Shown in pieces: positions 2,093-14,152 of a stretch of 64,000 bases of DNA. A model generated the notes under the pieces. It was not told the DNA's origin. It was given only the letters and a program-made list of their open reading frames with translations, and made no database searches. The stretch is from an uncultured Bacteroidota bacterium (GTDB lineage Bacteria > Bacteroidota > Bacteroidia > Chitinophagales > Chitinophagaceae): assembly GCA_903887415.1 (NCBI GenBank), contig CAISPO010000071.1:1-64000 (forward strand). Direction: 5' to 3'. A program made the position numbers and the translations under genes. Each line of letters begins with the position of its first letter. Within the stretch, counting starts at the first letter, position 1.

Positions 2093-3508
2093 CTATTTTA
2101 GAATTATACTGTCTTTTATTAGTCTAATATTATCTCCAGCCTCAAAGACCACAGAATTATCAACGGTATTGCAATCACAGAAAAACCAGGCATATGTTTC
2201 TGTTAATTTGGTGGAACTCCAAAATGATAAGCCGTTCCAAAAATCTCCGTCTGTGCTACGAGAACCTAAATGTCCCCAGCTTTCTTCCCTGTCTAAATTC
2301 AATTTATGACAAAAATCTTTATCTCCACCGCAATGATTTATTGCATATTCAAATTCATATTTTGCGGGAATATGCCAGCCCTTCGGTGCTAATTTTCGGG
2401 AATCATTTATAGCATACCAATTGTATATTAATCCATATTTCTTATCTGAGCTTGAATCATTTCGAAGATAACACCAACATCCAATCTTTTGACTATTATA
2501 ATTTATCCAATCTTCATTTGTTATAGCTTTTGGTATTAAGTCGCCATTTTGGTATTTTTTAACATTTAAATTTAATGTATCCCAAATTTGGCTTCCGATT
2601 TTTATTCCATGATCATTCCTATGTGAATAGACATTTCTGAAATAAACAGAACAAAAAATAATTAAGCATGTAAGGAGTAAAGTAAAAGTCAAAATTCTTA
2701 ATAACCTCTTTTTATTTTCCTTCACCAAATCATACCATGTTTTATATTGAACGGATAAGATTTTCCCATTCCTAACTTCAATGGATTTGATTTTTCCCTT
2801 TCTGACAAATTGAATTATACCATCAGCTTTATTGTTTCCAAAGTATACATCATCGCCTAAAGACATTTCGTAAAGATTATGCTGATGAACACTCAGTATA
2901 CCTTTTAGTGTTTGATACTCTCTTATATAAATAACACTAACAACAATGCCATCCTTAATAATTATTTTTTTACCTTCTCCAAGTCCGATTTGATGATCGC
3001 CCGTAAGCATCCTGAAATCTTCATCATAAATCTTAGTTCCATTATCAATACCTACACCATAATTGTAATCATTGTAATAATAGGTTCTACCATCATTGAG
3101 TTTAAATTCTTTTAACCGCATCTTTTCAATGATCAAACCCCTTAGATAGTTGATGTAGTTTAGATCTGGAACCACCTGTTTATTTACCAATACCCAAGGA
3201 TCTGACTCCGTACCATCTTTCTTTAAGAACATCAACCCATCAAATACCAATGCCTGATTCAATAAGATCTTATCTACATTCCTATCTACAAGTATGCTCT
3301 TAGCCGCTGCCAGAAACTCCCATTTTCCAGTCTGGGCATCACCATTGAGTGACATTATCAATCTACCATCTCTTTTGAATATGTAGGTATGTTGATTCCC
3401 ATTATTATCAATGAAGACCCAATGCCTATCAACGAATACCTCAATCTTATCCAGGCTGGCACTGAATTCCTTTAGCCGAGGCAACAAGTTCTTTAAATAG
3501 TCAATCAT
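2093..3508 (-). CDS. membrane protein with C-terminal FISUMP domain
   Basis: A 471-residue protein in three parts. Residues 1-130 form a domain seen at the start of other Bacteroidota proteins (FKRDGRLIMSLNGD, then a GKWEFL motif). A central region follows, with one membrane helix at about 269-290 (LLRILTFTLLLTCLIIF). Residues 301-470 resemble the Fibrobacter succinogenes major paralogous (FISUMP) domain, with IKIGSQIWDTLNLNV, YGLIYNWYAI and APKGWHIP as landmarks. FISUMP domains are usually in exported surface proteins, but here the orientation suggests an internal N-terminal domain and an external C-terminal one. It is the last gene of the leftward restriction-type operon, 25 bases after the metallopeptidase gene. 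Its role in that operon is unknown. Confidence 0.75.
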   Translation of the reverse strand: MIDYLKNLLPRLKEFSASLDKIEVFVDRHWVFIDNNGNQHTYIFKRDGRLIMSLNGDAQTGKWEFLAAAKSILVDRNVDKILLNQALVFDGLMFLKKDGTESDPWVLVNKQVVPDLNYINYLRGLIIEKMRLKEFKLNDGRTYYYNDYNYGVGIDNGTKIYDEDFRMLTGDHQIGLGEGKKIIIKDGIVVSVIYIREYQTLKGILSVHQHNLYEMSLGDDVYFGNNKADGIIQFVRKGKIKSIEVRNGKILSVQYKTWYDLVKENKKRLLRILTFTLLLTCLIIFCSVYFRNVYSHRNDHGIKIGSQIWDTLNLNVKKYQNGDLIPKAITNEDWINYNSQKIGCWCYLRNDSSSDKKYGLIYNWYAINDSRKLAPKGWHIPAKYEFEYAINHCGGDKDFCHKLNLDREESWGHLGSRSTDGDFWNGLSFWSSTKLTETYAWFFCDCNTVDNSVVFEAGDNIRLIKDSIILK

Positions 3509-3533
3509 AACTTTCTGGTTATGTTAGTGGTTA

Positions 3534-4238
3534 TCAAATCTCCCCAACAGGCAATCTGTTTAATTCATCCCTTATCGACTTCCATTTGGGTATATGCCGA
3601 TCCATATAAGCCTGGAATACATCGTTGTGGTTGCGCTCCAGCAGATGGGTAAGCTCATGTGCTAATACATACTCAATGCAATCAACTGGCTTCTTGATCA
3701 GCTCCAGGTTAAGATTGATATTAGCTGTTTCAATTTTACATGACCCCCACTTAGTAGTCATTGTTTTTATCATGTAGGTACTGGGAGAAACACCTACAAT
3801 GCCTTCCCACTTATCTGTCAGCTCTGGCAACAGTTCCTTGAACCTGGTGCGGTACCATTCCTTAAACAGTTCAGCTTTTTGCTCAACAGAAAAACCAGGC
3901 TTGATATACATGTCGATGTACGTCTTCGTCCTGAGTATGATCTTGGGGTATCGGATAAGGTGATCAGTTTCATGAACCCGAAGCAAGTACCTTTTGCCTA
4001 AATAATAATGGCTTTCTCTATCCACATATTGCCTCGGTGATTGCCTATCCTGGTTAAGGAACAATCTTTGCTGCCTTTTGATCCAACCGATCTTTGAGGT
4101 GGTATATAGTTCAAGGGTTTGCAGATTTACATCTGCTGGTGCAGCAAGCCTAACTCTACCATCGGGTGGATAAACAGCCAAATGGATATTCTTGATGTCC
4201 TTACGGATAACTTCTACTTCAATACCAGCAATATTCAT
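3534..4238 (-). CDS. YgjP-type (DUF45) metallopeptidase
   Basis: A 234-residue protein with the zinc-binding HExxH motif as HELTH at about residues 194-198, and a third likely ligand, His204, in RNHNDVF. The preceding TKWGSCKIETANINLNLEL segment is typical of the YgjP/SprT-like (M48-type) family. Such peptidases are often encoded next to type I restriction genes, but their substrate is not firmly known. Its start follows the hsdR stop with no gap (4239/4238), so the two are probably translated from one mRNA. Confidence 0.9.
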   Translation of the reverse strand: MNIAGIEVEVIRKDIKNIHLAVYPPDGRVRLAAPADVNLQTLELYTTSKIGWIKRQQRLFLNQDRQSPRQYVDRESHYYLGKRYLLRVHETDHLIRYPKIILRTKTYIDMYIKPGFSVEQKAELFKEWYRTRFKELLPELTDKWEGIVGVSPSTYMIKTMTTKWGSCKIETANINLNLELIKKPVDCIEYVLAHELTHLLERNHNDVFQAYMDRHIPKWKSIRDELNRLPVGEI

Positions 4239-4958
4239 TTATCTATACTCCTTCTGATTTTTTATGATCTCAAAAATGGCATCCCTTCTATCCTGATCTA
4301 CAATATACTTTTTGATGATGTTTATGATCATTCGCTCCTTCAATGTATCACCAATCCAGTCATCCTTCTTTTTGGCTATTATCTCATCATTCAAGGCAAT
4401 TACCGTTGGTATATCCTTATTAAGGTTATCATACAAAGACATCTTTGCCTTGGTGTCTATTTCAGATGGATAATTGTGATTTCCCTTCTTCGGTTGTATA
4501 TCCCTGGCATACTCCTCAATCTTCTTCAAAAACTCCTCATAACTGATTGCCCCTAACTTCCTCTGCCTGATCAATTCTTCCAGCAACACACTCATCTTTT
4601 CATAGTATACTGGGTTAATTGGCATTTCCTGGGTAATAACCTTTCGCATATTGGCTTCGAGGGTTTCAGCCATCGCATTTTTGTTTCGTCTAATGGAGTT
4701 CGGCAGTTTACCAGTGGCTGCCTCAATTCCATGTTCCACAATAATCTGCAATAAGGTTGCATCTCCGAAATTAGATATAGTACGGCTTGGGTCTGCGCTC
4801 AGGTACATGTCAAGTAGCTGCCTCATTTCTGGTTCATAGGCTTTCAAGTCTATATAGTCACCACTAGCTATTTTTATGGAGTTTCTAAGTTCAGTGTACT
4901 CATCAACGGTATTCTTTATTCTGTCTGATTCAGCCTGGCTATAACCTGCCTGTATCAT
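4239..4958 (-). CDS. hsdR: HsdR C-terminal part, separated by a frameshift
   Basis: This frame encodes the helical C-terminal domain of the type I restriction subunit (AGYSQAESDRIKNTVDEY, a typical HsdR C-terminal signature), which contacts the methyltransferase core. The frame is open well upstream of the ATG at 4958, back to the G run at 5100-5106. The unlisted codons (for example KYFCGSTEDKAAL) continue the HsdR alignment, so this is not an independent gene. Removing one G from the run joins it to the upstream part and yields about 1009 residues, the usual HsdR length. Whether a separate polypeptide is made from 4958 is unknown. Confidence 0.85.
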   Translation of the reverse strand: MIQAGYSQAESDRIKNTVDEYTELRNSIKIASGDYIDLKAYEPEMRQLLDMYLSADPSRTISNFGDATLLQIIVEHGIEAATGKLPNSIRRNKNAMAETLEANMRKVITQEMPINPVYYEKMSVLLEELIRQRKLGAISYEEFLKKIEEYARDIQPKKGNHNYPSEIDTKAKMSLYDNLNKDIPTVIALNDEIIAKKKDDWIGDTLKERMIINIIKKYIVDQDRRDAIFEIIKNQKEYR

Positions 4959-5049
4959 TTCAGCTGCTATATTATTGTAAGCTCGGATGAGTGAAACAAC
5001 CGCCTTATAGAATGTTAGCCTCCGCTCTTCAGTATCTTTTAATGCAGCT

Positions 5050-7269
5050 TTATCTTCGGTGCTTCCACAGAAATACTTGATGTATTGTTCTATTTGCTTG
5101 GGGGGGTTCTACTGGATCACATAACTGGTGAATGGTTTCCAGAGCTTCTTCCATCCTTTCTCTGGCTTTCGTCAATCGGTCTACCAACAACCCTTTAACA
5201 TCTTCTTGATCGTATTGATCAAAGGCATCTGAGGTATAATCGGATATGGAGGCATTCAAGCTATCGAACAGGTCTTTGTAGTCAACTATGTAACCAAATT
5301 CCTTATCCTCATTCTCTGTACGATTAACTCTGCAAATAGCCTGGAATAAACCGTGATCTCTCATCTCTTTATCTATATATAGGAATGTACAAGCTGGTGC
5401 ATCGAAACCAGTCAACAGCTTATCCACCACTATTAGTAATTGCATATTGGCAGGCTCATCTATGAACTGCTTTTTGGCTTCTTTCTCATAGGTTTCCCTG
5501 TCCTTACCGTTGAGCATTCGATTGTAGATGGCATATTGCTCGATCTTTTCAGTATCACCTTCACCAGTAGTTTCACCTTTGATACTCGTTGTTGTGGGTT
5601 CGTAGGATGTGATGATGGCACAATTCTTAAAATTGAAGTTTTGGAATATCTCATAATACCTGCAAGCCTCGTAAATGCTTTTGCAAACCAATATTGCATT
5701 GCCTTTGCCGTTTCTTAGCCTTGGCTTAATCTTGAAGTCCTTAATGATGTCAAAAGCGACCTTCTGCAATCTATCCTTCGTACTGAGGATCTTTTGCAAA
5801 GTACCCCACTTCTGCTTTAACTCAGCTTTCGGTAGGTCATTCATTCCCATGGTAACAATATCAAACCATTCATCAATTGCTTTTTGATCTTGGACATGCT
5901 GATCCACATTCCTGGCTTCGTAAAGCAGATCCAGTACAACGCCATCCTTAACAGCTTCATCAAACTTGTATGTATGTATATACCTTCCAAAGATTTCTAT
6001 ACTTTTTTTCTTATCGGCTTTTAATAATGGAGTACCAGTGAAACCGATGAATACAGCTCCAGGTAATAACTCCGTCATGGCATCGTGCAGTGTGCCGTTT
6101 TGTGTTCGATGGCACTCATCAATAAACACAAACAGGTTGCCTTTGGGCTTAAAGTCCTTCGGCTTTTTAAGTTCATTTACAAATCCATCAATATCTGGCT
6201 CATCATTTCTTCCGAACTTATGAATTAGTGAACAGAGGAGCCAGGGAGTTGTGTCATTTAGCTTATTGATAAGATCTTGACCGCTTTTGGTGCGATATAT
6301 TTTCTCATCAACCCCAGTGAAGACCTTTTCAATTTGTTCATCAAGTTCTGTTCTATCTGTTATTATCAACAGTCTGGCATCTGTTTGATGTTCCCTTATC
6401 CATTTAGCCAACCACACCATAGTCAGACTTTTCCCACTGCCCTGTGTGTGCCAAATGATACCCCCTTCCTTTCTATTGACATATTGTTGTGCAGCCCTTA
6501 CTCCAAAGTATTGATTGGGGCGGCACAACTTCTTAATCCCTGCATCAAAAACTAAGAAATCATGGATCATTTCCAGCACTCTGGATTTTGCGCAGAATTG
6601 AAGCAGATGTTGATCTAACAGGTTTTTGTCAGGATCATACGTATGGTTGTCTTCTTTCCACTTGAGGTAGTATTTTTCAGTTGTCTTGGTCGTGCCATAA
6701 TATAACCCCTGGGTATCATTCCCAGCAAGCATCAACTGTACGGTGGTAAAGAATGGTTTAATAAATCGGTGTTGTTGATTATCCAGGTTTTGCCTAATAC
6801 CTTCATTTACAAATACGCTGGCTCTCTTTAGTTCCAGAACCCCAAGGGCTATGCCGTTAACGTAAAGTACGACATCTGGTCGCTTTTTATTTACACCTTT
6901 TACGGTTACTTCCTCTGCGATGGCGAAATCATTTAGTGCTGGGTGTCCCCAGTCAATGAGCATTACGGTTTGATCGGCTTCACCAGCAGATTCCTTTTCT
7001 TTGATACCATAGCGCAATTTGGAGTACACATCCTTATTTACTGGGTATAGATCATCATTGGGGCTGATAGAAGCCGCTTTTTTAAAGCTAAATAAGGCTT
7101 TGGCAATGATAGTATCAGAATACTTCCCTGTACCTTTAAGATAGGTTTTCAGGTCTTCTTCACGGATATTGGTATTGTCAAAATCTTCCAGGTTGCCGAT
7201 ATAGCGGTAACCAAGGTCCTCATTTAGTAGCTTTACTACTCGATTTTGGGTGATACGTTCCTTTCTCAT
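5050..7269 (-). CDS. hsdR: type I restriction enzyme subunit HsdR, N-terminal and motor part, frameshifted
   Basis: These 739 residues hold the nuclease and translocase modules of HsdR. The PD-(D/E)xK nuclease is at about 131-149 (RPDVVLYVNG, then LELK). Walker A is TQGSGKS near 276-282, DECH is near 385-388, and FTGTP is near 414. Toward the end the frame leaves the HsdR sequence at EPPQANRT, exactly at the run of seven G (seven C on the coding strand), and stops after 20 foreign residues. This is either a one-base error in a homopolymer or a real phase-off state. The N-terminus overlaps the DUF262 stop as ATGA, which indicates translational coupling. HsdR needs HsdM and HsdS to act; no hsdM lies in the window. 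Confidence 0.92.
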   Translation of the reverse strand: MRKERITQNRVVKLLNEDLGYRYIGNLEDFDNTNIREEDLKTYLKGTGKYSDTIIAKALFSFKKAASISPNDDLYPVNKDVYSKLRYGIKEKESAGEADQTVMLIDWGHPALNDFAIAEEVTVKGVNKKRPDVVLYVNGIALGVLELKRASVFVNEGIRQNLDNQQHRFIKPFFTTVQLMLAGNDTQGLYYGTTKTTEKYYLKWKEDNHTYDPDKNLLDQHLLQFCAKSRVLEMIHDFLVFDAGIKKLCRPNQYFGVRAAQQYVNRKEGGIIWHTQGSGKSLTMVWLAKWIREHQTDARLLIITDRTELDEQIEKVFTGVDEKIYRTKSGQDLINKLNDTTPWLLCSLIHKFGRNDEPDIDGFVNELKKPKDFKPKGNLFVFIDECHRTQNGTLHDAMTELLPGAVFIGFTGTPLLKADKKKSIEIFGRYIHTYKFDEAVKDGVVLDLLYEARNVDQHVQDQKAIDEWFDIVTMGMNDLPKAELKQKWGTLQKILSTKDRLQKVAFDIIKDFKIKPRLRNGKGNAILVCKSIYEACRYYEIFQNFNFKNCAIITSYEPTTTSIKGETTGEGDTEKIEQYAIYNRMLNGKDRETYEKEAKKQFIDEPANMQLLIVVDKLLTGFDAPACTFLYIDKEMRDHGLFQAICRVNRTENEDKEFGYIVDYKDLFDSLNASISDYTSDAFDQYDQEDVKGLLVDRLTKARERMEEALETIHQLCDPVEPPQANRTIHQVFLWKHRR
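5100..5106. repeat. run of seven G that breaks hsdR
   Basis: Seven G on the + strand (seven C in the coding direction) lie exactly where the reading frame leaves the HsdR alignment. With six, the coding strand reads GAA CCC CCC AAG CAA ATA (EPPKQI) and the frame continues without a break to 4239. Confidence 0.9.
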
Positions 7270-9224
7270 AATTCCAGTTCAATTTCTTGTAACAAATTGT
7301 TTTCCGAATCGGTAAGTTCTTCATCCTGGTTTTCCAGTTCAATCTGCACTAAGTCTTGAGTTTCTCCAGGCTTTTCCAATGCAAGTAAACCTCTTAGCTC
7401 CTTTTTCAATAATTCTTTCCTGTTGAAGAAAAAACGCTCAAAATCCGCAAAATGAATGTCTGCATCAGCGGGAATATAATTGATCTGGCAGAAATGCTTC
7501 CTACTGATCTCGTCTTTTTTCATGAGCCAATCATAAAAGCTGGTGTCATTTTTAGACATATTATTGCTTGCTTCCATAAACTGTAAATTTGGAAGCTGAT
7601 CCTTCATCATGACCCACTTTATTCTATCTTCTTCGCCTAAATTTATGCTGTCAAAATTTGCTTTGTCAAAACGAGCGGATGGGTGAATATGATCCTGGTG
7701 GAACTTCGATTGCGAATAGTTCAAATGGGGGTACAATAACGATAATACATAAAACGAGTTAACCCCTTTGGCATAGAACATATAACTCTCAAGTGATACT
7801 TCAGTTATCTTCAATGACTTTTGTGACGGCAATTTTACCGCCAACATATCATTGAAGCTAAATCTTTGATTTTTTAGCTTAAACTCTTTTTTTGCATCAC
7901 TGGTTGTAATCCCTGGCATTCTTAGGCTATTTCTTAATACAGCAATCAAGCTATCCTGAGAACTACCATACACCCCCGTTAAGAAAGAGTGCACCAAATA
8001 TTTTCTTATTTCTTTCTTAGTGTTTACATCAACTATTCCACCTTTTATGATGTAGTAAGCGATAATCAGTATAGAATTTGCAGATGCCAATAACTTGCCG
8101 TTAAGTCCAAATTCCACCAGGATATCAACCGTTATATTCACGGCTCTATCGATTTTAATCCATTGCGATTTGATTGCCTCTACATTAGCAGACTTAAAAG
8201 AGTTTACTTTAAATAAAACAGGTGCGTCTGTTAAAACCAAACAGGCACGCATCAAAAAATCATTGTTGAAATTAAATCCATCACCCTTAGCATTGATCCC
8301 TTTTAGCAAGCCCTCTATTTTATCTCTACCTTCATCCCAGGTTGCAACAATGGTTGAGAACAGCAGGTCGGTTTTACTCAGTATCGTACCTCCGCTGTTA
8401 ACACGAACGAATATCTTGAGAATTGCTTCAAGATCGTTGTTGTTAACTTCAAAATAATTGATGATTTTATCTTCATACAGCCGCTTATACAACAAACCCA
8501 ACCCTTTTTTAACAAATCGCTTCTGTCCAATAATCGCAGTCTTTTGTCTTTCATTTGACGACAATTCGAGGAGCTTATCGAATTTGAAGTCTATATCTGG
8601 GTCTTTACCCCAGTTCATAATATCACCAACTTTCAACCACAACATTTCTTCATTTACTATCGTTTCTATTCCTTCCTCAGTCATTTTTTTAGCATTGCGA
8701 AAAACGAAGTGTTGTGCCTCATGAGAAGTGAGAAATCGAAACTCAAAGTTCCTTTCCTCATCAATATCAATCTGGGCTTCATTTTCGCTTACTTTAAACG
8801 GGAGTGTGAGCAGATTCAGATAAAGGCTTTTCACTTCGTATGCTGAAGGATTGTTTGCGTGTTGGTAAGGTTTTTTCTCGGTATGGGTGCCTTGTAATGC
8901 TATAAAAATAGAGCTTAACCTTTGTTGTCCATCCAGCACACCAATGATCTCTTCATGGGTGAAACTTCCTATTTTCCTTTCGTTATAAGGTGTTCTTTGG
9001 TCATATTTTCTAAGGAAACAATAAAAAACGTAATCCTGAGCTACACGTTGATTTAACCGCCAGAATAGGAACGTGCCAATAGGGTAATTTTTCATTAGTG
9101 AATCAAACAGCAGCGTGATCTGCTGCTTGCCCCAAACGAATTTTCGTTGTATGGCTGGAAGAAAGACCTTATTCTGATCGATCTGATCAACAATATTTTT
9201 AACGGTTAAACTCTGATATGACAT
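7266..9224 (-). CDS. DUF262 and HNH (DUF1524-like) protein, GmrSD-related
   Basis: A 652-residue protein. The N-terminal DUF262 domain shows PAIQRKFVW at about 23-31 and the nucleotide-handling DGQQRLSS at about 98-105. The C-terminal nuclease region has DHIHPSARF at about 511-519 and a downstream NNMSKND that fits a beta-beta-alpha (HNH) site. Proteins of this build include the modification-dependent GmrSD enzymes and phosphorothioate-sensing SspE-like enzymes, which cut modified phage DNA using NTP hydrolysis. Here it sits inside a type I restriction operon, stops four bases into hsdR (ATGA overlap) and starts 17 bases after the glycosylase gene. The substrate specificity cannot be read from the sequence. 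Confidence 0.88.
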   Translation of the reverse strand: MSYQSLTVKNIVDQIDQNKVFLPAIQRKFVWGKQQITLLFDSLMKNYPIGTFLFWRLNQRVAQDYVFYCFLRKYDQRTPYNERKIGSFTHEEIIGVLDGQQRLSSIFIALQGTHTEKKPYQHANNPSAYEVKSLYLNLLTLPFKVSENEAQIDIDEERNFEFRFLTSHEAQHFVFRNAKKMTEEGIETIVNEEMLWLKVGDIMNWGKDPDIDFKFDKLLELSSNERQKTAIIGQKRFVKKGLGLLYKRLYEDKIINYFEVNNNDLEAILKIFVRVNSGGTILSKTDLLFSTIVATWDEGRDKIEGLLKGINAKGDGFNFNNDFLMRACLVLTDAPVLFKVNSFKSANVEAIKSQWIKIDRAVNITVDILVEFGLNGKLLASANSILIIAYYIIKGGIVDVNTKKEIRKYLVHSFLTGVYGSSQDSLIAVLRNSLRMPGITTSDAKKEFKLKNQRFSFNDMLAVKLPSQKSLKITEVSLESYMFYAKGVNSFYVLSLLYPHLNYSQSKFHQDHIHPSARFDKANFDSINLGEEDRIKWVMMKDQLPNLQFMEASNNMSKNDTSFYDWLMKKDEISRKHFCQINYIPADADIHFADFERFFFNRKELLKKELRGLLALEKPGETQDLVQIELENQDEELTDSENNLLQEIELEL

Positions 9225-9241
9225 AAGTGTTAGTGTTTAAT

Positions 9242-9853
9242 CTATAACTGGTGCCACAAGGGTAGCCAACTATTATAAATAAAATCTCTTAAAGATATAC
9301 CAGCATCACCAGGCATCTGAAATCTTGCACTTGCAGACGGTGTTAGCAATGTTTGGTGGGTGATGTTATTTTGGTTGCAATACTCAGTTACTTGCAACCA
9401 TAGGTTATCCCAAAAGGGTACACCAAGTTGCCTTGTCAGGTAAACATGGTTAATAGTTGGGTGATCCCGTAATACTCTCACAATATCAACAGGTGTAAAG
9501 TCATGAAAATTGTTAGCAATATCGGCATCCTGATAACCCATTAGCGCATCTACGTGTGCTGGGTTAACGATGTCAGCATCGTTTATTGTCTGTAAAAGGT
9601 CGGTTACTGCGATACCGTTCCTGGCACAGAACTGCTTCCATTCTAAATGCGTTTGATGCCTGAGATTGATGTCTTCATAAATTCGAGGTAGCACGTCCCA
9701 AAAATAGTTTCTTGCTGTTCTACCATAGAACCATTCAGCGTTATTTCCAAGGTTATCCCATCCAGGATTGAAGGTGCCAATAATTAAAGTGGTAGGCTCA
9801 AAGTCAATCCTAGCCAGATGCAGATAGTCCAAAAATTTGTGGTTGCAGGGCAT
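9242..9853 (-). CDS. uracil-DNA-glycosylase-superfamily protein
   Basis: A 203-residue protein with LIIGTFNPGW at about residues 23-32, in the place of the G-x-x-P-G motif of the UDG fold, and FYGRTARNYFWDVLPRI at about 42-58, which matches the FY..xRNxFW motif of the MUG/deoxyinosine-glycosylase branch. The usual C-terminal H-x-S-P-type motif appears only as TPSASARF. The family removes damaged or non-standard bases from DNA. It is not a usual part of type I restriction loci; its position between two nuclease genes (4 and 17 bases away) makes a role in recognising base-modified DNA a fair inference, but not a proven one. Confidence 0.75.
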   Translation of the reverse strand: MPCNHKFLDYLHLARIDFEPTTLIIGTFNPGWDNLGNNAEWFYGRTARNYFWDVLPRIYEDINLRHQTHLEWKQFCARNGIAVTDLLQTINDADIVNPAHVDALMGYQDADIANNFHDFTPVDIVRVLRDHPTINHVYLTRQLGVPFWDNLWLQVTEYCNQNNITHQTLLTPSASARFQMPGDAGISLRDFIYNSWLPLWHQL

Positions 9854-9857
9854 ACTA

Positions 9858-10784
9858 TTATGCTCTAAATAGTTTGAAACTAACCTGGTAACGGTAAAAA
9901 CTGATGCTCGGTGCTACAACTAACGCTCTTTTAATTCTAAGGTCATCATCAAGGGCTATTATTATTCCTCTGACGGTTTGACCCTTTTCTGCTAATTCTT
10001 CCAACACATAACCCATATATCGCTGGATCTGACCTATCACGCTATCACTTGCTCTACCTTTCTTCAATTCAATAACCAGCAGCTCTTTTCTGTTCTTGCT
10101 TATAGCAAGTAGGTCAATAAAGCCTGTGTCGCATGGATACTGCTTACCTATCATCTCACCATCTTCCTCGTATAGATCGTAAGATTTGCCCAGATCTGTT
10201 TGCTTCCAGTTGGCAACCAGGAAATCTTCGAGGTGTTTCTCCAGAGCAAAAACTGATGGGTCTTCAATGGTTGGATCATTGGATATTATTGATGGTGCTT
10301 TATTATCACCAATCAATGATTCAATCTCTTTGGCATAGCTGGTGATGTTACTCACCGTACCAATTGAACCAGTGCTGTTTTTAAGGGCATCGGTCATATT
10401 AGCTCTGTCAATGGTTTCATCGTTCCATTTAACAGTTCTTCTATGAGGTAATATTTCATTAGGATGGTATTCATAGTCACCCAGCACTTCGCCCACATAA
10501 TAGCTACCCGAACCGTTCGGTGAGAGAACGATATCTCCTTTCTTAATACCTTTTGATACAGTCCAGATGGCACCGCAAGACAGTCCCGCTGCGACTTTGC
10601 TTTTACCTGGGTGATTGCTCAACCAGATTGGAATGTATTGTTTATTGAAATCACGCCAATTATCTGTGAGGTCTTGGGTGAGGTCTTGAAGTATAGAAAA
10701 GCTGACACCAATGAAATTGCCTTTAACGCAATCATCAACATAAACGCTCTTGGCTCCCAGCATTACCCTGTAATAGCTTTTCAT
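9858..10784 (-). CDS. NucS-like PD-(D/E)xK nuclease with N-terminal EVE/PUA-like domain
   Basis: A 308-residue protein. Residues 1-150 resemble the EVE/PUA-like sensor domain found before restriction nucleases (VAAGLSCGAIWTVSKGIKKG, GDIVL, VGEVLGDYEY). Residues 180-280 form a NucS/DUF91-type nuclease core, with Asp224 in FIDLL, Glu239 and Lys241 in IELKKG, and QIQRYMGYV. The domain pair is typical of enzymes that sense a base and cut. The start overlaps the hsdS-fragment stop by ATGA. Its direct neighbours are the HsdS remnant and the glycosylase-like gene. Confidence 0.82.
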   Translation of the reverse strand: MKSYYRVMLGAKSVYVDDCVKGNFIGVSFSILQDLTQDLTDNWRDFNKQYIPIWLSNHPGKSKVAAGLSCGAIWTVSKGIKKGDIVLSPNGSGSYYVGEVLGDYEYHPNEILPHRRTVKWNDETIDRANMTDALKNSTGSIGTVSNITSYAKEIESLIGDNKAPSIISNDPTIEDPSVFALEKHLEDFLVANWKQTDLGKSYDLYEEDGEMIGKQYPCDTGFIDLLAISKNRKELLVIELKKGRASDSVIGQIQRYMGYVLEELAEKGQTVRGIIIALDDDLRIKRALVVAPSISFYRYQVSFKLFRA

Positions 10785-11296
10785 ACCAGCCTTATTTTAC
10801 CAGTTAACAATACCTGCATCATTGCTTGTTTCTGTTGCAATAATTTGAAGAGTTTCATTTCGCACGTTAAAATTTGGCAATCGATATCGTTTAATATGAT
10901 GCCGATTTCTACTTGTTTTTGAATTGAAGGTAATACAATCTCTATCATCTTTACATGAGAAGGTCCGAAATTTAACTGAGCCGATCCTGTAGCCTTTCCA
11001 CCAATTTGATCTTTAAACGACTGAGATCTAAGAAATTGGATAAGAAAAAACTTATCCAATTTTTGTTGATTGGGCTTAAATCTCATTGTACTTGTATTCA
11101 TGCATAATGGCAAATGTTCAGTTTGTGCTACTGTAACTTTTTCATCAAATTTGTCAATCGAAACCCCAGAAGAAGCAATAAGAATATCTCCTTCGTCTAT
11201 TAAAAAATGAGAATACCAACCATTGGCTTCCTTTTGGGATATATATTTATCTGTTTTTTCCAAACATGGGGCATTTTGGGGTATGCAGTGGGGCAT
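10781..11296 (-). pseudogene. hsdS: C-terminal half of HsdS specificity subunit, 5' part lost
   Basis: 171 residues show one target-recognition domain (FLIDEGDILIASSGVSI, GSAQLNFGPSHVKMIEIVLP) and the conserved distal helix ending LLQQKQAMMQVLLTGKIRL, the normal C-terminus of HsdS. Full HsdS has about 400 residues with two recognition domains. Here the first domain and central helix are absent, and a TGA lies just before the first ATG at 11296. Half-size HsdS can work as a dimer in some systems, but together with the missing hsdM this more likely is a remnant left by deletion or integration. Confidence 0.8.
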
Positions 11297-11320
11297 TCAA
11301 TATTTCCTCGTGAACCAGTC

Positions 11321-11354
11321 AATCAGTTAATCTTGAATAATCTGAGGTTCAGAC
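11321..11354. repeat. 34-base AATC...GGTTCAGAC repeat, copy 1
   Basis: It reads AATCAGTTAATCTTGAATAA followed by TCTGAGGTTCAGAC. It differs from the copy at 11657-11690 in 3 of 34 bases and shares the same layout with a third copy at 63249-63280. It lies 25 bases beyond the broken end of hsdS. Confidence 0.8.
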
Positions 11355-11656
11355 ATTGCCCCACACCGTTACCTGATGGGAAATGTCAAAAATAGATAAT
11401 AAATACGCCAAAACCAGCCACCGACTAGGCATACAGCAGAATCGGCACCAAACCAAAATGCCCCATATAGTCCGTGAAAAAATATGAGAAGCATGGGACA
11501 TTCATTCATAGGGGCAATCCCTGGGTGAGCGCATTTTAAGACTTACAAAATGGCAGGTAAGGAAAAATCAGGATTACGAGAAGTGCCAAGCGGAAGTAAA
11601 CCGGAAATTAACCAGAAGCGTTTTAGAAAATGCAATGTTTGTTCAGGCCAATAGTA

Positions 11657-11690
11657 AATCAGTTGATCTTGAATAATCGGAGATTCAGAC
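11657..11690. repeat. 34-base AATC...GGTTCAGAC repeat, copy 2
   Basis: It reads AATCAGTTGATCTTGAATAA followed by TCGGAGATTCAGAC. It is in direct orientation to copy 1, 336 bases away. Confidence 0.8.
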
Positions 11691-11994: not shown

Positions 11995-12810
11995 ATGATC
12001 GCCCTTCAGCAGCAGGAACCTGCAGTTAATAATAAAGCCCTCGCTTGGACCATCGGCGTTCATGCGTTGCTCCTTTTATTTTTCTTCCTGCTGCGCTACA
12101 CCATCAGCCCCATTCCGCCTGCACCTGTCGAGGGCGGCCTTGAGGTAAACCTCGGCACCAGTGATAACGGCAGCGGCAACGACCAGCCCATGTCCACTAA
12201 AGACCCTGCTGCCTACCAGGCTTCTGTGGTTTATAAAAGCGTAGCCGCAAAAAGCGACATACCAAAAGAAATAGTACGCACTGACCAGGAAGATGCGCCT
12301 GAAGTAAACGAAACAAAAAAAGCAAAGAAGGTAGCTCCTTCTGATGTCAAGCCAATAGAGAAGCCAAAACCTGCGGTACAGGAAAAGCCTAAATATATAA
12401 TGCCAGCAAGCACCGGCCAGGGCGGCAACAGCGCCGCGCAAAACAAGCCCGGCACCAGCGAAGGCAATACCACAGGGCCTGGCGACCGCGGAGTGCCCGG
12501 CGGCACACCCGGAGCGGCTAATTATTCAGGCATTCCCGGCAATGGCAATGGCGGCATACGCCATACTTTGTCCGGCAGACAGATTTCGCCTGATAAGTTT
12601 GAAGCCGAATTCCATGAGAGCGGCAAAGTAGTTATCCATGTCACCGTGGACAGGGACGGAAACATTGTGGACAAGCGTGTAAAAAGCTCTTCAAACCCGG
12701 AATTGACCAGACTGGCATTAGATAAACTCCGGGGTGCTAAGTTCAGCAGGAGCGAAGGAGCCGAGCCACAGCAGTTTGGCGACATCACTATAAACTTCAC
12801 AACGCGCTAA
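11995..12810 (+). CDS. tonB: TonB-family energy transducer
   Basis: A 271-residue protein with one N-terminal membrane helix (about 17-38, ALAWTIGVHALLLLFFFLL), a Pro/Lys-rich periplasmic spacer (VKPIEKPKPAVQEKPKY), a Gly/Asn-rich linker (about 140-190), and a C-terminal TonB-like domain (about 205-270, GKVVIHVTVDRDGNIVDKRV ... FGDITINF). It would pass proton-motive energy from ExbB/ExbD to outer-membrane receptors such as the barrel encoded at 57057. exbBD are not adjacent. It lies seven bases before folC and is likely co-transcribed with it. Confidence 0.85.
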   Translation: MIALQQQEPAVNNKALAWTIGVHALLLLFFFLLRYTISPIPPAPVEGGLEVNLGTSDNGSGNDQPMSTKDPAAYQASVVYKSVAAKSDIPKEIVRTDQEDAPEVNETKKAKKVAPSDVKPIEKPKPAVQEKPKYIMPASTGQGGNSAAQNKPGTSEGNTTGPGDRGVPGGTPGAANYSGIPGNGNGGIRHTLSGRQISPDKFEAEFHESGKVVIHVTVDRDGNIVDKRVKSSSNPELTRLALDKLRGAKFSRSEGAEPQQFGDITINFTTR

Positions 12811-12817
12811 TAGCTAC

Positions 12818-14152
12818 ATGGACGATATTTCCGCTTACCAGCAAACACTTGATTATCTGTATGAGCGCCTGCCTATGTTCTCACGGATAGGCGCTGCGGC
12901 CCTGAAACCAGACCTTACCAACACCATTAAGTTATGCGCAGCCCTGGGTAACCCGCATGAAAAATTCAGGTCGGTTCATATTGCCGGTACAAATGGCAAA
13001 GGCAGTACCAGCCATGCATTGGCAGCCATTTTGCAGGACGCGGAGTATAAAACCGGGCTATATACCTCACCGCACCTTATCGATTTCCGCGAACGCATCC
13101 GGGTAAACGGAATGCCGGTAAGCAAAGATTGGGTCGTTGATTTTGTCAATACCAATAAGGCGCTCATTGAAGAAGTAAACCCTTCTTTTTTTGAGATCAC
13201 GGTAGCCATGGCATTTGCTTTTTTTGCAGAGCAAAACGTCGATATAGCCGTTATCGAAACCGGCCTTGGCGGCCGCCTGGATAGTACGAATGTCATCACT
13301 CCCCTGCTCTCCATCATCACAAACATCAGTTACGACCATAAAGACCTGCTTGGCAATACCCTGGCTGAAATAGCCGGTGAAAAAGCCGGCATCATAAAGC
13401 CGGGCATACCCTTTGTTGTCGGTGAGCAGAACGATGAGACGGAACGGGTGTTCTTTGAGCATTCGGTTCACAAAAAAGCACCGCTGTACTATGCACAGTC
13501 ATTGTGGGGCATGGTACGCATAAACCAGGACGAAAAGTATCAGTATTACAAGGCAGTAAATAATGCCAAACGGGAAATGTATGACCTGCATACCGACCTC
13601 CTCGGCAACTACCAGCACCACAATCTTAAGACCGTATTGACAGCAGTTGAAATATTAATACACAAAGACTTCAACCTGTCTATACCCGCAGCGATAGGCG
13701 CCCTGGCTAATGTAAAAAATACAACCGGCCTCCGCGGCAGGTGGGAATGGCTCCGGGAAAACCCCACCATCATCTGCGATGTAGCCCATAACCCGGCCGG
13801 CCTCAACGAAGTATTACTGCAATGGCAGCAGGTAGCGGCAACTGCAAAACATATAGTGCTTGGCTTCGTAAAAGACAAAGACATTTCAGATGCTCTGGCG
13901 CTCTTCCCGAAAGATGCCACCTACTATTTCTGCAATGCGAACATTCAGCGGGCCCTCCCATCAGCAGAGCTCAAAGAAATGGCAGCTAGGTACGGCCTCG
14001 CAGGAGGTGCCTACCCCACCGTAGCAGCAGCGCTACAGGCAGCAAAAAACAACATGGCAGAGACAGACGCACTGCTCATCACCGGTAGTTTCTTCATTGT
14101 TGGAGAAGCGCTGTCAACGTGGAAATCTGAAGAAATTGGAATTGGGAATTAG
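12818..14152 (+). CDS. folC: bifunctional dihydrofolate/folylpolyglutamate synthase
   Basis: 444 residues, the normal length for FolC. The ATP-binding loop AGTNGKGSTS is at about 56-65, the ETGLGGRLDSTN motif near 147-158, and DVAHNPAGL near 321-329. The enzyme adds glutamate to dihydropteroate/folates in the cytoplasm. The last residues (EEIGIGN) and the stop codon are encoded inside a GGAATT-type inverted repeat that begins at 14136, so the natural C-terminus was probably a little different before the repeat arrived. Confidence 0.95.
   Translation: MDDISAYQQTLDYLYERLPMFSRIGAAALKPDLTNTIKLCAALGNPHEKFRSVHIAGTNGKGSTSHALAAILQDAEYKTGLYTSPHLIDFRERIRVNGMPVSKDWVVDFVNTNKALIEEVNPSFFEITVAMAFAFFAEQNVDIAVIETGLGGRLDSTNVITPLLSIITNISYDHKDLLGNTLAEIAGEKAGIIKPGIPFVVGEQNDETERVFFEHSVHKKAPLYYAQSLWGMVRINQDEKYQYYKAVNNAKREMYDLHTDLLGNYQHHNLKTVLTAVEILIHKDFNLSIPAAIGALANVKNTTGLRGRWEWLRENPTIICDVAHNPAGLNEVLLQWQQVAATAKHIVLGFVKDKDISDALALFPKDATYYFCNANIQRALPSAELKEMAARYGLAGGAYPTVAAALQAAKNNMAETDALLITGSFFIVGEALSTWKSEEIGIGN

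Follow-up and report, generated by a model that had tools for sequence, protein, structure and literature searches.

What remains of a type I restriction operon that has kept hsdR but has no hsdM? The question is raised by an uncultured bacterium of the Chitinophagaceae (Bacteroidota), where a leftward run of closely packed genes at 2093 to 11296 of contig CAISPO010000071.1 includes recognizable hsdS and hsdR sequences. The window analyzed here is the first 64 kb of that contig (C71), and the genome to which it belongs (G000) is a draft of 74 contigs that is 99.3% complete. The original prediction for this locus noted the missing hsdM and offered two explanations, that the methylase lies elsewhere or that the operon has been rebuilt around its DUF262 protein and a protein with a uracil-DNA glycosylase (UDG) fold. 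Our results favor neither. They point to a type I restriction-modification locus of the order hsdM-hsdS-cargo-hsdR-ygjP whose core has very probably been broken recently, with the cargo left in place and perhaps still serving modification-dependent restriction.

The breakage is evident at each of the three core genes. The predicted run of seven tightly spaced genes is real, as is its spacing, but it consists of eight open reading frames (ORFs), all on the minus strand, the C-terminal part of hsdR having been missed; the family assigned to every gene holds. The hsdS gene (10781 to 11296) had rightly been called a fragment. Its 171 codons encode part of the last target-recognition domain and the C-terminal helix (PF01420, E = 2.8e-8) rather than an HsdS with two such domains, and similarity to full HsdS begins only near 11263, spanning approximately the last 155 codons of the ORF. 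The gene breaks off inside uninterrupted sequence, with about 11 kb between it and the end of the contig. Its breakpoint region (11263 to 11342) adjoins one copy of a 22-base repeat, whose copies at 11321 to 11342 and 11657 to 11678 lie in the noncoding stretch upstream of the truncated gene, the nearer about 25 bases from the start of the ORF; the chance control for this repeat used a pattern drawn from the sequence itself and so overstates how surprising it is. The hsdR gene is divided over two ORFs that do not share a frame, an N-terminal part with the nuclease and the SWI2/SNF2 motor (5050 to 7269; PF04313 [HSDR_N] and PF18766 [SWI2_SNF2]) and a C-terminal part (4239 to 4958; PADLOC REase_I, E = 1.1e-64), which cover 6 to 750 and 797 to 1031, respectively, of the REase_I model. 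A single-frame HsdR with nuclease, motor, and C-terminal domain is therefore absent from the assembly, possibly through sequencing error, and no other HSDR_N match exists in G000.

The absence of hsdM extends from the window to the whole of G000. Whole HsdM from the sister locus L020 gave 0 matches there as a query, and the hsdS fragment is the sole Methylase_S match in the genome. PF02384 had three matches in two ORFs, both of which also match Eco57I-type methylases and neither of which has HsdM_N, so that no N6-adenine methylase of the HsdM kind was found in G000. A methylase acting in trans is rejected on these same searches of G000. With hsdR split, hsdS reduced to a fragment, and HsdM missing, the core is better described as broken than as rebuilt; because neither HsdM nor a whole HsdS was found, we infer that type I function, methylation as well as restriction, has been lost.

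Comparison with other genomes shows what the locus used to be. HsdR matches at E ≤ 1e-50 occur in 58 of the 294 genomes of our family sample (G000 included), and we compared gene order in 14 related type I loci, namely, the 10 closest outside the window (L077 to L086) together with L020, L147, L152, and L187. Eleven of these have an intact hsdM. In the other three, hsdM lacks its first ~110 residues (L086), survives as a short tail (L077), or is divided into two ORFs of 198 and 613 amino acids (aa) lying almost end to end (L083, 9913 to 12353), possibly a damaged methylase. A YgjP gene directly follows hsdR in 13 of the 14; the remaining locus, L086, ends inside hsdR. Since 11 relatives keep an intact hsdM with hsdS, hsdR, and YgjP, and the order hsdS-cargo-hsdR-ygjP is common to the window and to intact operons, the window copy is best seen as the damaged descendant of an ordinary type I locus and not as a rebuilt operon.

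The three genes between hsdS and hsdR are cargo in a slot whose contents vary. In eight of the related loci hsdS and hsdR abut: five have a 4-base overlap, in L085 the overlap is 11 bases, and the two genes of L081 and L084 are 3 and 5 bases apart, respectively; in the other six, cargo separates them. The HsdR tree (in which the window is represented by 5107 to 7269 only) places L020 as sister to the window plus L077 with 100/100 support. This closest relative, L077, has whole hsdS and hsdR genes, the remnant of hsdM, and no cargo, and the N-terminal part of the window's hsdR is 90% identical to its intact HsdR. Positions 3537 to 7270 of the window are collinear with L077 at 81.6% DNA identity, and the 3' end of hsdS matches it over 57 bases (10778 to 10834) at 96.5%. 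The 3.5 kb between these two aligned segments are precisely the three cargo genes, which run from the hsdS stop to the hsdR start. Because extra genes fill the slot in six related loci and L077 has none, we regard them as cargo; since L020 also carries a UDG gene, L077 may have lost its cargo, the alternative being a gain in the window. The original prediction had allowed that this might prove an ordinary type I locus with chance neighbors. The first half of that is borne out by intact hsdM and hsdS in relatives, but the extra genes behave as exchangeable cargo of the hsdS-hsdR slot; 15 of 18 other UDG loci and all five BrxU-like relatives, with no hsd genes in the DNA examined, speak the other way. 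Homologues of two of the window's cargo genes, and other DUF262 genes, recur in the slot. Defense-like cargo of other kinds, identified from Pfam and gene order, was also seen in type I loci: a CD-NTase with a patatin and a GGDEF-like gene (L092, 7407 to 10143), DarT with a macro-domain gene (L096, 7746 to 9407), a Schlafen/AlbA-type gene (L088, 8788 to 10470), and, between hsdM and hsdS rather than in the slot, AbiEii with DUF6088 (L085, 10419 to 12045).

The first cargo gene (9858 to 10784) overlaps hsdS by 4 bases and encodes an apparently intact 308-aa protein with a NucS-like nuclease domain (NucS_C, PF01939, E = 6.6e-9) behind a putative EVE/YTH-like domain. It matches the PADLOC model PDC-S02 along its whole length (531 bits over residues 1 to 306) and is 59 to 65% identical to seven full-length homologues; D224, E239, K241, and Q252 in its PD-(D/E)XK region are invariant among the eight aligned proteins. 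The nuclease assignment is consistent with a Foldseek match to EndoMS/NucS, on a structural model of middling quality (pLDDT 77, pTM 0.49), and with a weak sequence match to NucS in the PDB (2vld, E = 2e-4). For the N-terminal domain there was no Pfam EVE match, and the Foldseek YTH matches, obtained on that same model, were weak (E about 0.01 to 0.08). A phage search returned no match. Full-length homologues were found in one other genome of the family sample (G263), with partial matches in six more, and in six others of the 395 genomes of our phylum sample. At four of these seven loci the gene stands behind hsdS (L149, L151, L152, and, with one gene between, L147), in L089 it stands behind the hsdR of another type I family, and in L148 and L150 it is away from hsd genes. 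Among plasmids, 21 records matched, of which seven span 80% or more of the query; these are all from Acinetobacter, and six have one and the same identity and score. Two of the seven were inspected, and the one annotated without breaks (L144) carries an hsdS-type gene followed by hsdM-hsdS-NucS-Abi-hsdR-SprT. The gene thus follows hsdS in operons with hsdM in L152, L147, L151, and L144, and in L144, L149, and L151 the two genes overlap by 1 to 4 bases. In the flanking DNA examined, L149 and L151 have no hsdR behind the nuclease gene. In L151 (5967 to 12515) the order is hsdM-hsdS-EVE-NucS and then a deaminase-domain gene; on a separate contig, that genome carries an hsdR belonging to the same subfamily (L188, 1897 to 4986).

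Four bases further on, the second cargo gene (9242 to 9853) encodes an apparently intact protein of 203 aa. TIGR04274 matches it far under the cut-off, and its assignment to the UDG superfamily comes from structure: the AlphaFold2 model (pLDDT 92.8) shows a UDG fold, the sequence has a GTFNP motif, and the best Foldseek match of the model is a putative UDG (2l3f, E = 2.7e-5, TM-scores 0.56/0.68), followed by thymine DNA glycosylase (TDG; E = 8.2e-4), these being the only two matches at E ≤ 0.001. The defense glycosylases Brig1 and Brig3 are not named among the 50 Foldseek matches listed. Searches by sequence gave no glycosylase among two weak PDB matches and no match among plasmids. Matches at E ≤ 0.001 occur in 13 of 147 family genomes, among them G000 with two further copies; these paralogues (C3:83343-83963 and C37:221661-222125) are 52% and 31% identical to the cargo protein and have no hsd genes in the surrounding DNA examined. 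When the L020 copy was searched against the phylum sample at E ≤ 1e-20, 2 of the 395 genomes matched, G000 being one. Of 18 other UDG loci collected (L020 to L036 and L187), three, L020, L029, and L187, have the gene between hsdS and hsdR. We found no report of a UDG-fold gene in this slot, alone or with adjoining GmrSD genes, in a literature search of open-licence papers.

The third cargo gene (7266 to 9224) starts 17 bases beyond the second, overlaps hsdR by 4 bases, and encodes an apparently intact 652-aa protein of the GmrSD family (DUF262, PF03235). It matches PDB 7p9k (deposited as a DUF262 domain-containing protein, which we take to be BrxU) with E = 6.8e-77 over residues 6 to 614, scores 578 bits against PADLOC HEC-05, and retains the motifs DGQQR and DHIHP. 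DUF262 and an HNH (DUF1524-like) domain are thus joined in one chain as in BrxU, with no separate Pfam match for the C-terminal domain. Other matches at E ≤ 1e-20 were found in five genomes of the family sample, at 30 to 37% identity.

The three proteins belong to families whose members act on modified DNA, as the original prediction had proposed, and they may constitute separate modification-dependent defenses. The DUF262 domain of the BrxU-like protein would sense modified cytosine and its HNH domain would cut; the EVE-like domain would read a modified base next to the cutting PD-(D/E)XK domain; and the UDG-fold protein, like Brig1 and Brig3, may work by cutting out a modified base, so that an abasic site is left behind. 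Such cargo would give intact relatives a defense against phages that escape the type I enzyme through their modified DNA. In the window, the cargo may be all that still works.

Several points weigh against this account. The activity and targets of the cargo are putative, as is its expression after loss of the genes upstream. The one candidate promoter, a Bacteroidota-type promoter-like site near 11413 to 11387, has no chance baseline, and 47 copies of its -7 motif are present across the window. No HsdM, HsdS, or HsdR relative was found in the DNA examined around 15 of the 18 other UDG loci, although six of these (L021, L023, L026, L027, L032, and L033) lie close to a contig end or on contigs of <7 kb and may have unseen neighbors, as may L153, which starts at a contig end. 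None of the five BrxU-like relatives has hsd genes in the DNA examined, which argues against a fixed partnership of the BrxU-like enzyme with this operon. The C-terminal part of hsdR, moreover, shows no relaxed constraint: the proportion of nonsynonymous differences from L077 (pN) is 0.048 in both parts (the N-terminal comparison covers the first 720 codons), and the synonymous proportion (pS) between the hsdR of the window and that of L077 is 0.737 and near saturation. The frame break is thus either very recent or not real. It could be a sequencing error, in which case HsdR would be whole and still without HsdM, and HsdM itself may be encoded in DNA that the draft does not contain.

Among the rival explanations, the one that fares best joins the UDG-fold and GmrSD proteins in a functional pair that couples base excision to cleavage and that type I loci acquired as a unit. 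Counting the window, UDG has adjoining GmrSD genes in three of four UDG-bearing type I loci. Excluding it, a DUF262 gene lies between UDG and hsdR in two of the three (L020 and L187) versus none of 25 type I loci without UDG (Fisher p = 0.008), and DUF262 appears in none of the 15 UDG loci outside type I in the DNA examined. The 25 loci (L077 to L089, L091 to L096, L144, L145, L147, L152, L158, and L159) were searched with a custom DUF262 profile, with Pfam also run on some of their cargo genes; L149 and L151 (hsdS, or hsdM and hsdS, with no adjoining hsdR) and L188 (hsdR alone) fall outside both this set and the 14 loci above. The same profile found DUF262 genes, among type I loci, only in L020 and L187, on both of which Pfam was also run. 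This sample is small and biased, however: L020, L029, and L187 were found through UDG, L144 and L145 are near-copies with several protein accessions in common (L145 with many broken ORFs), and the profile was built partly from these same loci. The DUF262 proteins belong to more than one subfamily, L029 carries a UDG gene but no DUF262 gene, and the UDG tree (built without the distant L032 to L035 and without L036) is poorly resolved, with only two starred branches and the type I-embedded copies not in one clade. Given the way in which the three loci were found and the mixture of DUF262 subfamilies, the association is no more than a lead, and we consider such a pair unlikely. An extension of it, in which UDG and GmrSD form a recurrent two-step module of the slot in Bacteroidota, the glycosylase taking modified bases out of phage DNA and the nuclease then cutting at or near the abasic site, and in which the module outlives a type I enzyme that here is already dead, strikes us as quite doubtful.

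It is improbable that the system is in fact intact and only looks broken through an artefact of assembly or sequencing. The hsdR frame break (5100 to 5108) does adjoin the only G/C run of at least seven in the 64 kb, and the sole single one-base length difference in the 3,734-column alignment of the window with L077 falls there. The draft state of the assembly could be cited in the same sense. Such an artefact would leave unexplained the genome-wide lack of HsdM and of any further HsdS, as well as an hsdS that stops well inside its contig.

An older loss of hsdM, common to the window and L077, with HsdR kept for an HsdM-independent role, would account for the absence of an intact hsdM from both members of the tightest HsdR clade around the window (support 100/100), for the whole hsdS and hsdR of L077, and for the strong purifying selection on hsdR. 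The hsdM tail of L077 points the other way. Its 34 residues are 39 to 65% identical (mean 53%) to the tails of 11 intact HsdM proteins (L151 included, L147 left out), which themselves average 49% over 55 pairs. An ancient shared loss should have removed this tail, yet it has been kept while synonymous sites neared saturation, so that the loss in L077 looks recent and the two losses separate. The test is weakened by overlap of the tail with the hsdS start, which may partly constrain it. On this comparison we judge an old HsdM-free lineage very unlikely.

That unrelated genes were merely dropped beside a dead hsd locus, as the UDG and BrxU-like relatives lacking hsd genes might suggest, is hardly credible in view of the exact fit of the cargo between hsdS and hsdR, and is contradicted by other loci, where homologues of EVE-NucS or UDG, or other DUF262 genes, again occupy that slot.

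At its downstream end the broken operon closes with a YgjP/SprT-like metallopeptidase gene (3534 to 4238; PF01863, E = 1.2e-56), the regular last gene of this type I operon. The gene for a FISUMP-domain membrane protein 25 bases beyond it (2093 to 3508; PF09603), which had been counted in the operon, is probably an unrelated neighbor. No such gene follows YgjP in the relatives read, and membership is accordingly judged unlikely; blastp against the collected ORFs gave a single match, located in L188 at a distance of about 5 kb from hsdR. On the other side are genes that we presume, from their sequence type, to be TonB-like and folC-like (11995 to 14152). This pair is kept in four searched genomes of the genus but is adjoined there by other genes, which indicates that the hsd locus sits at a variable site. 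A serine recombinase gene lies near the contig start (471 to 1148; PF00239, E = 7.3e-13), with a weak match, below the cut-off, to Mpi-type DNA invertases, and a gene 34% identical to it lies near the L077 hsd locus (10533 to 11162).

Much of this anatomy has precedent in published work, which describes type I loci that contain GmrSD genes, EVE/DCD domains in the vicinity of type I loci, and UDG-type defense glycosylases, some near restriction genes (PMC11411939, PMC13160076, PMC11078745, PMC4619093, PMC7641849, PMC12707154), and reports an enrichment of type I genes in the neighborhood of GmrSD genes (PMC4619093). A close parallel is TgvAB, a GmrSD-type system embedded in the type I cluster of Vibrio VPI-2, whose modification-dependent protection is independent of HsdR activity (PMC11411939). 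There, however, both of two DUF262 proteins are required and the type I core is active, whereas the window combines a broken core with a single fused BrxU-like protein and has EVE-NucS and UDG cargo besides. Type I loci of Campylobacter, with RloF and other R-linked ORFs, likewise have a DUF262 gene between hsdS and hsdR (PMC4619093, PMC11411939); the window differs in its other cargo genes and its broken core. HEC-05 has been equated with BrxU (PMC11411939), which sits with BREX in a plasmid defense island (PMC12707154). The window gene resembles BrxU in domains, motifs, and near full-length match, but it occupies a type I slot, and its substrate is putative. PDC-S02 is matched along its whole length by the EVE-NucS protein, which differs in the overlap of its gene with hsdS. 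Brig1 homologues have been reported near BREX/Pgl genes and also restriction endonucleases (PMC11078745, PMC13160076); the cargo protein is likened to Brig1 and Brig3 by its UDG superfamily and defense setting, and its relatives are in type I loci at only the three loci named above.

The locus is therefore of a familiar kind, a type I system in which type IV-like cargo is embedded, but two things about it are unusual: its core is broken while its cargo is whole, and one of the cargo genes encodes a UDG-fold protein. It would appear to be a type I locus caught in decay with the cargo spared, and it cautions that hsdR and hsdS matches in a genome need not mean a working type I system. It also adds a gene with a predicted UDG fold to the known cargo of the hsdS-hsdR slot. 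If the UDG-fold and GmrSD proteins do act together, they would link base-excision defense to type IV restriction.

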